Source of the DNA: a virus
Direction: 5' to 3' (one strand)
Length of the DNA stretch: 20,167 nt
Virus record (IMG/VR): IMGVR_UViG_3300020446_000106
Location: 1-20,167 of that record
Positions 3,469 through 10,457 of this stretch are shown piece by piece; positions within the stretch are counted from its first letter, which is position 1, and each line of letters starts with the position of its first letter. The notes under the pieces are model-generated. The model was not told the origin of the DNA and made no database searches. It saw nothing but the letters and a program-made list of their open reading frames with translations. Position numbers and translations under genes: made by a program.

Positions 3469-3884
3469 CAGTCTGCTCCACGCATGGCTTTTCTTCCACG
3501 GTGTACCATCCCACCTACAGCAAATCCTGCTGGGTTTTGTTCTTTCTGGTCTATCAAATCTTTTGCTCTTCCAGCACTGTCTTTACCAGTAGTGTCATAG
3601 TCGTCGTATTTTCCTGATGCCACACCTAAATAAGACAATATCTCATTTCGTATTCTTTTATCAGTATACTGGTCTTTTGAACCTTTTGGACCGTACTCTT
3701 CAGGAACATTATCAGCTAACCATTTTTTATTTACGATAGTTCGTTTTTGTTTAGTTGTTAATTTATCAAAGCCGGGATGTAGCTTTCTCATTTGAGGACC
3801 GTATTTTTTTAAATCTTTTGCAAAGTAAAATGCGTTGTCCTCTATATCATCACCTTTAGTTCTTAAACGAGTTGCTCTAGCCAT
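3468..3884 (-). CDS. Hypothetical basic protein between TerS and TerL
   Basis: A 138-aa protein starting 8 nt inside the end of terS, with AAGGAAG as ribosome binding site. It is lysine-rich, with a segment around residues 40-60 (TTKQKRTIVNKKWLADNVP) and a Gly/Met/Arg tail GFAVGGMVHRGRKAMRGAD. Similar glycine-methionine tails occur at the ends of small proteins in marine phage structural modules, but I cannot name a family. Tight overlap with both neighbours places it in the packaging operon. An accessory packaging or capsid-associated protein is a guess only. Confidence 0.75.
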   Translation of the reverse strand: MARATRLRTKGDDIEDNAFYFAKDLKKYGPQMRKLHPGFDKLTTKQKRTIVNKKWLADNVPEEYGPKGSKDQYTDKRIRNEILSYLGVASGKYDDYDTTGKDSAGRAKDLIDQKEQNPAGFAVGGMVHRGRKAMRGAD

Positions 3885-4275
3885 CGATTACTACTTCCTT
3901 CTTTGGTGGCAGTAATACGACACCGTGAACTGCCTGTACATTGTGATTCATTGTTTCTTGCTTACCAAGGCCAACTCTATTCAAGATTGCTTCTGCTGCA
4001 CGTAGTTTTAGGTCGTCCCCACGCTCGATAACTGGCGTGTCAACTAACTCTACCATCTTATTTGCAGCCTTGAGGGAGTTTCCCGCCAACACCGCACGGG
4101 TACGTTCGACGATTTCCTCTGCTAGGGTGTCGCGTAGCCACGTAACAGACCCACGGGCATACCCCGCAATCTCTGCCGCTTGGTTGAAATTGCCGTTAGA
4201 CTCGAAAAGGGCTGTCAAGAAGTTTTCTTGCTTCTCAGACAACTGCTTTTTCTTAGCTTGTTGTACTAAATTCAT
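3877..4275 (-). CDS. terS: Terminase small subunit-like protein (TerS)
   Basis: A 132-aa protein that fits a small terminase subunit, which recognises the packaging site and hands DNA to TerL. Residues 11-48 look like a helix-turn-helix (LSEKQENFLTALF, then NFNQAAEIAGYARGSV), a common start of TerS proteins. A helical central part (LAEEIVERTRAVLAGNSLKAANKMVEL) follows, then LRAAEAILNRVGLGKQ near residues 91-106, a segment that recurs in TerS families. It is the first gene of the leftward packaging operon. A leftward promoter sits at 4393-4421, giving a leader of about 110 nt. The start is preceded by AAGG at a spacing of about 9. The call rests on pattern and position together. Confidence 0.8.
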   Translation of the reverse strand: MNLVQQAKKKQLSEKQENFLTALFESNGNFNQAAEIAGYARGSVTWLRDTLAEEIVERTRAVLAGNSLKAANKMVELVDTPVIERGDDLKLRAAEAILNRVGLGKQETMNHNVQAVHGVVLLPPKKEVVIDG

Positions 4276-4392
4276 AGAATTTGCCTTGATTAGGTGCTGG
4301 GTAGCGTTCTGTCACTCGGTTTCTGCCTGTTTCGTAAAGGAACTAGCGTGATAGGTGAGGCGAACCAGCGTTTTGCAACCCCAGCAACACCC

Positions 4393-4421
4393 ATTATGGT
4401 AACAATCGGGCGAACTGTCAA
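4393..4421 (-). promoter_or_regulatory. Sigma70-type promoter for the packaging operon
   Basis: On the minus strand a perfect -35 TTGACA (4416-4421) and a -10 CATAAT (4393-4398) are separated by exactly 17 bases. Transcription would start near 4386 and run into terS, terL and the recombinase-fold gene. The match implies use of the host housekeeping RNA polymerase. Confidence 0.7.
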
Positions 4422-4472
4422 CTGTTTTCCCTAAATATTATAAAAAAAATTACGCGAAGGGCATTTTTGGGG

Positions 4473-4501
4473 TTGACGGATGCGATATACGACCCTACAA
4501 T
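4473..4501 (+). promoter_or_regulatory. Rightward sigma70-type promoter of the candidate small RNA
   Basis: The -35 box TTGACG (4473-4478) and the -10 box TACAAT (4496-4501) are 17 bases apart. The start would fall near 4507-4510. No credible plus-strand gene follows; an intrinsic terminator comes about 55 bases after the predicted start, so the product should be a short RNA. Confidence 0.7.
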
Positions 4502-4543
4502 GGCCTATCAGCCGCCGGGTAAACCCCCATATACCCTGCAAGG

Positions 4544-4565
4544 CTACCTTACACGTTTGCCGGGA
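4544..4565 (+). repeat. 22-bp direct repeat, copy 1
   Basis: This 22-bp unit begins CTACCTTACACG and ends GCCGGGA. It is identical to 4602-4623, with a 58-bp period. It lies inside the candidate small RNA and its last bases form the 5' arm of the terminator. The bases just before it (TGCAAGG) resemble those before copy 2 (TGCAGGGT), so the duplicated unit may be nearly 30 bp. Confidence 0.9.
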
Positions 4566-4587
4566 CCCCTAGTCGGGTCCCTTTTTT
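4562..4587 (+). terminator. Rho-independent terminator of the candidate small RNA
   Basis: A perfect 7-bp stem GGGACCC (4562-4568) / GGGTCCC (4575-4581) with a 6-base loop is followed directly by six T residues on the plus strand. The minus strand has no matching T-run, so it works for rightward transcription only. Confidence 0.8.
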
Positions 4588-4601
4588 GTTATTTGCAGGG
4601 T

Positions 4602-4623
4602 CTACCTTACACGTTTGCCGGGA
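4602..4623 (+). repeat. 22-bp direct repeat, copy 2
   Basis: Exact second copy of the unit at 4544-4565, located 20 bases after the small RNA terminator. Here the sequence after the repeat does not form a terminator hairpin. Two spaced identical sites beside terS could be protein-binding sites (terminase, recombinase or repressor), or the remnant of a tandem duplication. Confidence 0.9.
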
Positions 4624-4696
4624 AGACCATATCGATAACCCCCAAAATACAAAAAATATGTCGGGATTGCATAGCAAATGCGGGGGGTCCCCAGTG

Positions 4697-4734
4697 GCCC
4701 ATGCGTACCCGCACAGGGGCAATATTTTTCTTTT
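4697..4734 (+). terminator. Possible second rightward terminator
   Basis: The nested stems GCCC (4697-4700)/GGGC (4717-4720) and TGCG (4702-4705)/CGCA (4710-4713), with a TACC loop, are followed by a T-rich tract (ATATTTTTCTTTT). The stem is interrupted, so this is weaker than the terminator at 4562-4587. It may act as a back-up stop for rightward readthrough toward the opposing early operon. Confidence 0.4.
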
Positions 4735-4969
4735 AGGCATACCTCACCGAGACGGTCAACCTTCCCGACAAACTACCCCAGCAACACCGCACCGCATCCC
4801 CAAACGATAACACACCCGCACCCGCCCACGTCCGCGTTTTGTCTTTTGTCATATGGTTAACCTACTGGGCTGGCCTTTACGGTTAATATAACATGGCTCA
4901 CAGGGCAAACACCCCGCACCGTAAACCCAACAAATACAACGGCTACACTATTATTCTGGTTAACCGCAT

Positions 4970-4997
4970 AAAAAAAGCCCCACCGGATAGGCGGGGC
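4970..4997 (-). terminator. Rho-independent terminator of the early leftward operon
   Basis: Read on the minus strand, GCCCCGCC and GGTGGGGC form an 8-bp stem (one G-U pair) around a short loop, followed by seven T residues. It lies just after the last gene(s) of the 5017-10405 leftward block and separates that block from the packaging operon. It is enclosed by a 10-bp inverted repeat (4950-4959 and 5025-5034). Confidence 0.8.
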
Positions 4998-5016
4998 AAG
5001 GTTGCTGGGAGGAAAA

Positions 5017-5076
5017 CTAGAGGCCCAGAATAATCAGGGCCAACAGTAACAGGTCGAATATATCACCCGCTGACAT
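5017..5076 (-). CDS. Tiny hydrophobic (membrane) peptide, 19 aa
   Basis: The ORF reads MSAGDIFDLLLLALIILGL and stops at TAG. Residues 5-19 are almost entirely Leu/Ile/Ala, enough for a short membrane segment. The ATG lies inside the last codons of the preceding gene (14-nt overlap, different frame), and AAGG occurs about 9 nt upstream, as expected for a coupled gene. It is the last ORF before the operon terminator at 4970-4997. Such peptides may act on the host membrane, for example in lysis timing or superinfection exclusion, but no function can be assigned. The main doubt is whether a 19-codon ORF is real. The hydrophobic composition, coupling and position argue for it. Confidence 0.5.
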   Translation of the reverse strand: MSAGDIFDLLLLALIILGL

Positions 5077-5290
5077 CACTTACTACCTTAACATCTGCAA
5101 GGGTCTTAGTATGCTTTTCGAACGAGTACATAGTAATTCCCGCATTGCCAAGCAAAGTTTCCAACACTGCCATCTGCTTATTAATGACATTGACCAACTG
5201 GGCAATCGCCATAAGGTCTTCATGCGGGATGACTGCAAAGTCTTCTTTATTCTCTTCGTTTACGTTGAAGTTAAAAGCTTCTTTCTTCAT
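5063..5290 (-). CDS. Small hypothetical protein, early operon
   Basis: A 75-aa protein beginning MKKEAFNFNVNEENKEDF. The start at 5290 is chosen over an upstream ATG (5332) because AAAGG lies about 8 nt before it and the upstream residues look like leader sequence. The middle (HEDLMAIAQLVNVINKQMAVLETLLGN) is a likely amphipathic helix and may dimerise. It is acidic, soluble and has no cysteine motif. I do not recognise the family. It is the penultimate gene of the leftward early operon, overlapped at its end by the tiny hydrophobic peptide ORF. Confidence 0.7.
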   Translation of the reverse strand: MKKEAFNFNVNEENKEDFAVIPHEDLMAIAQLVNVINKQMAVLETLLGNAGITMYSFEKHTKTLADVKVVSDVSG

Positions 5291-5349
5291 CGGTTTTACC
5301 TTTCTAGATTGGCGGGGATTGCAACAGCGCAACCCCCTATAAGTTTGTT

Positions 5350-5618: not shown

Positions 5619-6035
5619 CTACGCCCCCAACTTATACTTGCGCTTTGCACGTCCGGTAGTAATGGATTTCACATTATATCCAGCATTGCGTATCGCGCTA
5701 ATATGGCAATGAACCGCCATCTTGGATTTAACGTCAGTATTCCGCAAGATAGTGTCGAGAGTAACGGGATAAGGTCGAGTAACAAGCACGTTCAAAACCT
5801 GCCTAGTCATCGGCTCGAGCGTATTAGTTCCCCCGACTACTGGCTTCCCCCTTTCTGCTTTTTTTTCATCCGCGAAAACATAATCCAGCAAGCGTTTTGC
5901 CGCGCCTTCTTGGTCTTTCCGGTCTTGTGCAAAACCCTTCAAAGCCTCGTTCAAATATTGCCTAGCCTTCGGTGGTGAATACACCCAAGCTAACCCGATA
6001 TTCTCAACAATCTTATTTCGTGTTTCGGTTTTCAT
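5619..6035 (-). CDS. Probable winged-helix DNA-binding protein
   Basis: A 138-aa protein, MKTETRNKIVENIGLAW at the start, with AAAGGAACC as ribosome binding site. The N-terminal half is helical and charged. Residues ~76-136 read like a winged helix-turn-helix: MTRQVLNVLVTRPYPVTLDT, then NTDVKSKMAVHCHISAIRNA, and a basic wing GRAKRKYKLGA. That suggests DNA binding, possibly a transcription regulator of the phage. No catalytic motif is visible. It lies between a tiny membrane peptide and a small acidic protein in the leftward early operon. The fold assignment is by eye. Confidence 0.7.
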   Translation of the reverse strand: MKTETRNKIVENIGLAWVYSPPKARQYLNEALKGFAQDRKDQEGAAKRLLDYVFADEKKAERGKPVVGGTNTLEPMTRQVLNVLVTRPYPVTLDTILRNTDVKSKMAVHCHISAIRNAGYNVKSITTGRAKRKYKLGA

Positions 6036-10439: not shown

Positions 10440-10449
10440 CCCTGCAAGG
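10440..10449. promoter_or_regulatory. Operator-like imperfect palindrome CCCTGCAAGG
   Basis: A near-palindromic 10-mer at or just beyond the predicted start of the leftward promoter. Exact copies occur at 4534-4543 (inside the candidate small RNA) and 5558-5567 (inside a gene). Its location suits a repressor site, but the binding factor is unknown. Confidence 0.35.
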
Positions 10450-10457
10450 TATACTGG

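Follow-up and report, generated by a model that had tools for sequence, protein, structure and literature searches.

A noncoding gap in front of the terminase genes of an uncultured virus raises the question of what a short, terminated transcript would do at such a position. The virus is represented by a 20.2-kb piece, and the window is the whole of this stretch, 20,167 nucleotides. Its terL and terS genes run leftward, and those for primase, a DnaB-type helicase and polymerase run rightward. The terminase is nearest to those of HMO-2011-type podophages, with 55% to roseophage CRP-13 and 50–54% to pelagiphages and HMO-2011. HMO-2011-type phages belong to the dominant groups of marine viruses and, to our knowledge, their regulation, replication and DNA packaging are almost wholly uncharted. 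A first-pass annotation, made from the letters of the window, had read positions 4473–4588 as an undescribed gene for a small RNA, equipped with a promoter and a terminator of its own. The features of the region are as follows.

3877–4275, minus strand: terS, small terminase subunit (PHROG 2538, E 1.2e-3; at most 43% identity to annotated terS of CRP phages)
4276–5062: noncoding gap of 787 bp between terS and a leftward 89-aa ORF (5063–5332), holding all parts listed here but terS
4393–4421, minus strand: P_L, predicted promoter of the terS operon, TTGACA-17-CATAAT, conserved in alignments
4442–4449, plus strand: A tract upstream of P_R, with A/T tracts at the same place in relatives
4473–4501, plus strand: P_R, sigma-70-type promoter (TTGACG 4473–4478, 17-bp spacer, TACAAT 4496–4501)
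4502–4513, plus strand: dyad GGC-CTATCA-GCC across the putative start
4507, plus strand: putative transcription start, placed by alignment of relatives at the A of a TA conserved six bases past the −10 box
4507–4587, plus strand: predicted untranslated RNA of about 81 nt, delimited by promoter and terminator
4514–4526, plus strand: 5′ leader hairpin GCC-GGG-TAAA-CCC
4544–4565, plus strand: direct repeat copy 1 (CTACCTTACACGTTTGCCGGGA), within the RNA
4562–4587, plus strand: intrinsic terminator (GGGACCC 4562–4568, GGGTCCC 4575–4581, six T 4582–4587)
4602–4623, plus strand: direct repeat copy 2, past the terminator
4624–4715: most conserved untranscribed block (the core), kept in most relatives

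Conservation of the promoter and terminator

Within the single window, the signals were unremarkable. There were 34 promoter-like sites against 30.6 expected from shuffled sequence, which makes the score of P_R unexceptional, and 26 terminator-like sites against 17.0 expected, a modest excess. Thus, both signals were tested for conservation in relatives. Gaps upstream of terS were taken from 80 terL-relative loci and a few loci fetched by repeat sequence, and the presence of a promoter was not required. Those of at least 450 bp were clustered at 90% identity, giving 36 groups, although contig ends truncate many gaps. A promoter on the same strand, defined as TTGAC(A/G)-17-(TAnnnT or CATACT), was kept in 35 of the 36 non-redundant gaps, compared with 0.2 expected from shuffles. 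The CATACT −10 box was admitted post hoc, having been seen in place of TACAAT at identical spacing in two relatives (L002 and L004), and 33 of 36 were counted without it. The 36th cluster (L018) also has this promoter, its spacer being 16 bp. A rightward terminator, on the strand of P_R, was found in 26 of the 36 clusters, whereas shuffles gave 2.3 ± 1.6 and the reverse strand 1. The terminator stems of relatives differ in sequence and remain paired (GGGACCC/GGGTCCC, AGGACCC/GGGTCCT, GGCTCCC/GGGAGCC and CCCCGCTGG/CCGGTGGGG); therefore, selection keeps termination and not the sequence.

The counts of 35 and 26 among 36 clusters are strong but are not probabilities, since the clusters are related and do not represent independent events. 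Even so, the ordinary number of promoter-like sites in the window would allow both signals to be functionless chance matches, a reading that is hardly tenable against such counts in relatives. Because relatives conserve both signals, a transcription unit very probably exists at 4473–4588, and the TTGACG-17-TACAAT promoter and the GGGACCC terminator with six T were present as the first-pass annotation had described them.

The predicted RNA measures about 80 nt in the window and about 60–110 nt in relatives, and it folds better than shuffled sequence (z = −2.5). It had been said to encode no protein, which agreed with the sequence, as no ATG lies within it. A small-protein reading of the frame 4467–4736 was rejected because this frame is broken in relatives by indels, some within the run of T and some within the downstream core; its only ATG near the start overlaps the −10 box. 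The RNA was also rightly called undescribed: Rfam 15 gave no match at the gathering threshold in the window or in the loci of ten relatives, and a permissive scan gave no family across 4473–4588. A BLASTN search with the element in three forms matched none of 50,697 phage records. In viral contigs, the promoter-plus-leader pattern was found in at least 120 stretches, most of which belong to this type of phage, with some chance matches among them. A loose promoter-leader pattern in genome contigs was dismissed as chance, being scattered over unrelated bacteria among the matches listed.

P_R and P_L are arranged back to back, their −35 boxes 51 bp apart, which agrees with the claimed rightward orientation and divergence from the terS promoter. 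The −35 box of P_R reaches 1.90 bits per column, and the A tract at 4442–4449 is possibly an UP-like element common to both promoters. Since the two promoters are kept jointly in relatives of the window and in the cultured pelagiphage HTVC115P, divergent firing of P_R might tune P_L by supercoiling or competition for RNA polymerase, with the RNA as waste. This explanation is decidedly unlikely, as it leaves the flanking repeats and the conserved core unexplained, and many relatives have P_R about 100–200 bp further from terS.

In HTVC115P, the module upstream of terS comprises TTGACA-17-TATAAT, GACCTGCCGGG and then CCC..GGGG-TTTTTTT, its terminator being CCCTGCCTAAACCGGTGGGG followed by T7. 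HTVC103P and HTVC104P have the promoter and no obvious terminator, and no such unit was found before terS in the CRP roseophages or HMO-2011. Because a cultured pelagiphage also has the locus, the transcript and its possible role at a pac site or origin are testable. The genes to the right in HTVC115P (gp01 onwards) run in the direction of P_R, as would be expected if the unit were the remnant or attenuated leader of a former rightward operon, like the terminated lambda pR′ leader awaiting its antiterminator. This origin is very improbable, however, because every gene to the right of the gap in the window is leftward up to 10405, and the HTVC115P gene cluster preceded by P_R, TGCCGGG and the terminator has a promoter-like site of its own at gp01.

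The RNA body, its 5′ leader and possible action in trans

The region between promoter and terminator had been described as structured, with nested stems AGCC/GGCT and GGGTA/TACCC. As the conserved part of the unit, this fold was not borne out. The RNA body reaches 0.53–0.63 bits per column, among the least conserved stretches, and it drifts strongly in sequence and length among relatives. In an alignment of 15 close elements, 80% of cells were paired in these stems, and both-sided changes were seen in only 3 cells. The same alignment, in which several terminators are misplaced, also gave weak covariation counts for the helix of the terminator and for the leader hairpin; the evidence for the terminator is taken from the counts in relative gaps (26/36) and not from this alignment. 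The CCCTGCAAGG site to which the first-pass annotation had pointed occurs in the window and is not conserved, the closest relatives carrying CCCCGCAAGG, CCCTGCAGGG and CCCCGCTGCA. Thus, of the proposed small RNA gene, the selected promoter and terminator, the arrangement with P_L and the novelty were supported, and the conserved fold was not.

The best-conserved part of the RNA is its leader hairpin (1.28 bits per column). The first ~20 nt are conserved and read (C/T)GCC-GGG-TAAA-CCC across relatives. The arms of the dyad across the putative start change together between lineages: the mean stem was 3.7 bp, compared with 2.2 bp (at most 2.9 in 1000 trials) when arms were exchanged between relatives, and paired A/T flips distinguish near-identical relatives (L038 vs L102, L100 vs L118). 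An RNA hairpin was rejected for this dyad because its left arm, lying upstream of the putative start, would stay untranscribed; it is more likely a DNA feature. Separately, an insert AGTAAG(G/T)A, with G-rich sequence before or after it, recurs within the element (L029, L035, L037, L053, L066, L116 and L166) and resembles a small mobile motif or a binding motif.

The retained promoter and terminator would also suit a phage small RNA acting in trans, which might sequester a leader-binding protein as a decoy or pair with phage or host mRNAs. A decoy role is possible because the leader (YGCCGGG-TAAA-CCC) equals the opening ~20 nt of a late mRNA of these phages. The predicted late promoter for this mRNA lies downstream of a structural gene, and the transcript would open with the leader TGCCGGGGGTAAACCC, which is placed one to three bases before the ATG of the late gene in relatives that include G003, G006, G010 and G012; the close relative G001 has the variant GCCGGGATAAACCCCATG. 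By sequence, the small RNA and the late mRNA would thus have their first ~20 nt in common. A leader that is both conserved and common to the late mRNA suggests that something is read at the RNA level, which counts against a purely local role. The strong drift of the body and length speaks against action in trans, and the leader hairpin may be a mere 5′ stabiliser. Moreover, although the early leftward operon has in its leader (10441–10450, minus strand) a complement of CCCTGCAAGG, namely CCTTGCAGGG, the pairing does not track. Antisense pairing at this site was rejected because the early leaders of relatives have the palindrome CCCTGCAGGG whether or not the RNA carries a copy. A trans-acting RNA is the main rival to a local role, possible but rather unlikely.

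The common leader may bind a protein as a hairpin, stabilise the RNA or act as a signal to RNA polymerase, and it provides a second lead open to experiment. The late promoter CCCCCTTGACA-17-TATAAG, with the leader TGCCGGGGGTAAACCC right before the ATG and without a Shine-Dalgarno sequence, was seen in L527 (G003 11755), L526 (G012 7610), L515, L518, L521 and about 25 more loci. In other marine phages, a leader CCCGCCGGGG(G)TA(A/C)ACCCA is located just before a start codon (L347 5241, L352 1258, L370 5989 and L373 8961), and in L352 and L370 it lies downstream of a capsid-like gene.

Flanking repeats, the conserved core and a proposed local role beside terS

The direct repeats flanking the terminator were found in 22 of 34 relatives, compared with 0.4 expected. 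The copies co-diverge between lineages, taking the forms CTACCTTACACGTTTGCCGGGA, CCCTAATGGTTCGCAAAAT and CTACATAACCTGTTGCAAACA. To the right of the second copy, the core (1.17 bits per column) comprises CATATCGATAACC, an A-rich tract AAAATACAAAAAATATGTCGGGATTGCATAGCAAATGC and then the G/C-rich GGGGGTCCCCAGTGGCCCATGCGTAC, and it is a candidate for a protein-binding, pac or origin core.

The promoter, terminator, repeats and core are conserved. Because the promoter, leader, repeats and untranscribed core are kept while the RNA body drifts, a cis element is favoured over a trans-acting RNA. Accordingly, the reading we prefer, at a probability of roughly 0.4, is that a short transcript, ended by the terminator, has a local effect in a region that controls packaging or replication. 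P_R would serve as a strong host-type promoter for an untranslated RNA of ~80 nt, ended by the intrinsic terminator upstream of terS, and its firing would open and supercoil the DNA. The terminated transcript would span one copy of the repeat, with the second copy past the terminator. The repeats and the A-rich core might then be read by a phage DNA-binding protein (TerS or an initiator) whose specificity drifts between lineages. The terminator would stop the polymerase before it enters the core and before it collides with the leftward early genes. The local event could be pac cleavage, the start of replication or the timing of the divergent terS promoter.

This local reading is favoured by a promoter and terminator kept far above chance even though the terminator sequence changes, and by the fixed position of the module beside terS, HTVC115P included. 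In addition, the strict promoter-leader pattern occurred once in the records of 7 of 10 relatives, not at all in those of the other three, and never more than once. Against it stand the gap of phage PhiM6, which is without the unit, the absence of a clear terminator from about ten of the 36 relatives, and the scatter of contig ends. GC skew follows gene direction and gave no origin signal.

A link of the element to packaging is plausible from its position and from the pac site of PhiM6, a relative of HMO-2011. PhageTerm put the initiating pac cleavage of PhiM6 at position 1 (PMC6256558). This predicted cleavage falls in the matching gap, about 600 bp upstream of the gene that occupies the terS position, and a packaging role is suggested because the element likewise adjoins terS. 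No P_R and no terminator were found in the PhiM6 gap, and pac therefore does not need the unit. It is also possible to regard P_R transcription, or the RNA, as a working part of packaging initiation, with a transcription-coupled headful start in which a terminated polymerase or a repeat-bound RNA would help terminase choose and cut pac; we consider this improbable. The contig ends gave no support for a cos site with a fixed end, being spread over the gap and not stacked at one point. The 54.9-kb contig G003 (L200–L202) is self-closing by an exact 91-bp overlap, which lies in the conserved core immediately to the right of the element.

Other observations were made in and near the gap. Variants of GTTNGCYGGGAA / GTTGCTGGGG occur at 4293, 4388 (minus), 4555, 4613, 4773 (minus), 4785 (minus) and 5001; they are clustered in the gap on both strands, are rare in the rest of the window, and are possibly sites for one binding protein. 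On the minus strand, 4962–5030 gave a sub-threshold match to the alphaproteobacterial small RNA suhB/mmgR (25.3 bits, gathering 41, E 0.0068). This stretch forms the 3′ end and terminator of the transcript of the ORF at 5063–5332, carries TTTTCCTCCC (anti-Shine-Dalgarno) and is kept in close relatives; it is possibly a 3′-UTR small RNA. Two genes from the element, a 138-aa protein (5619–6035, minus strand) has a weak HTH_11 match under the cut-off (E 0.0047) and is a candidate DNA-binding regulator.

For HMO-2011-type phages, the unit thus represents a single, compact and conserved control locus that had not been named previously.

Comparison with known systems

Phi29 pRNA is a phage noncoding packaging RNA that belongs to a different motor and has a much larger conserved fold. 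The unit would resemble it as a phage noncoding RNA in a packaging setting, although the Rfam scan of the window was without a match. At lambda pR′, a strong promoter and a terminator give a short RNA (6S), the leader of the late genes, which is antiterminated by Q. The unit similarly has a strong promoter followed by a terminator, whereas the window genes beyond it are on the other strand.

In PhiM6 and the HMO-2011 group, the pac region is, as in the window, a noncoding gap upstream of the terS position. The cleavage in PhiM6 is a predicted one and, unlike the window gap, that of PhiM6 has neither P_R nor a terminator.

The lambda OOP RNA (77 nt), transcribed from pO, is like the unit in being short and having its own promoter and intrinsic terminator (PMC3985674; PMC12197685). 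Both are oriented against the operon next to them and adjoin a control region that contains repeats. OOP is antisense to the regulator gene cII and has as its neighbour the origin within gene O, whereas the RNA of the window overlaps no gene, being wholly within the noncoding gap with terS as its neighbour. The activity of pO affects lambda replication (PMC3985674). The conservation pattern, the position of the PhiM6 pac site and this lambda precedent together favour a local role of the unit in packaging or replication.
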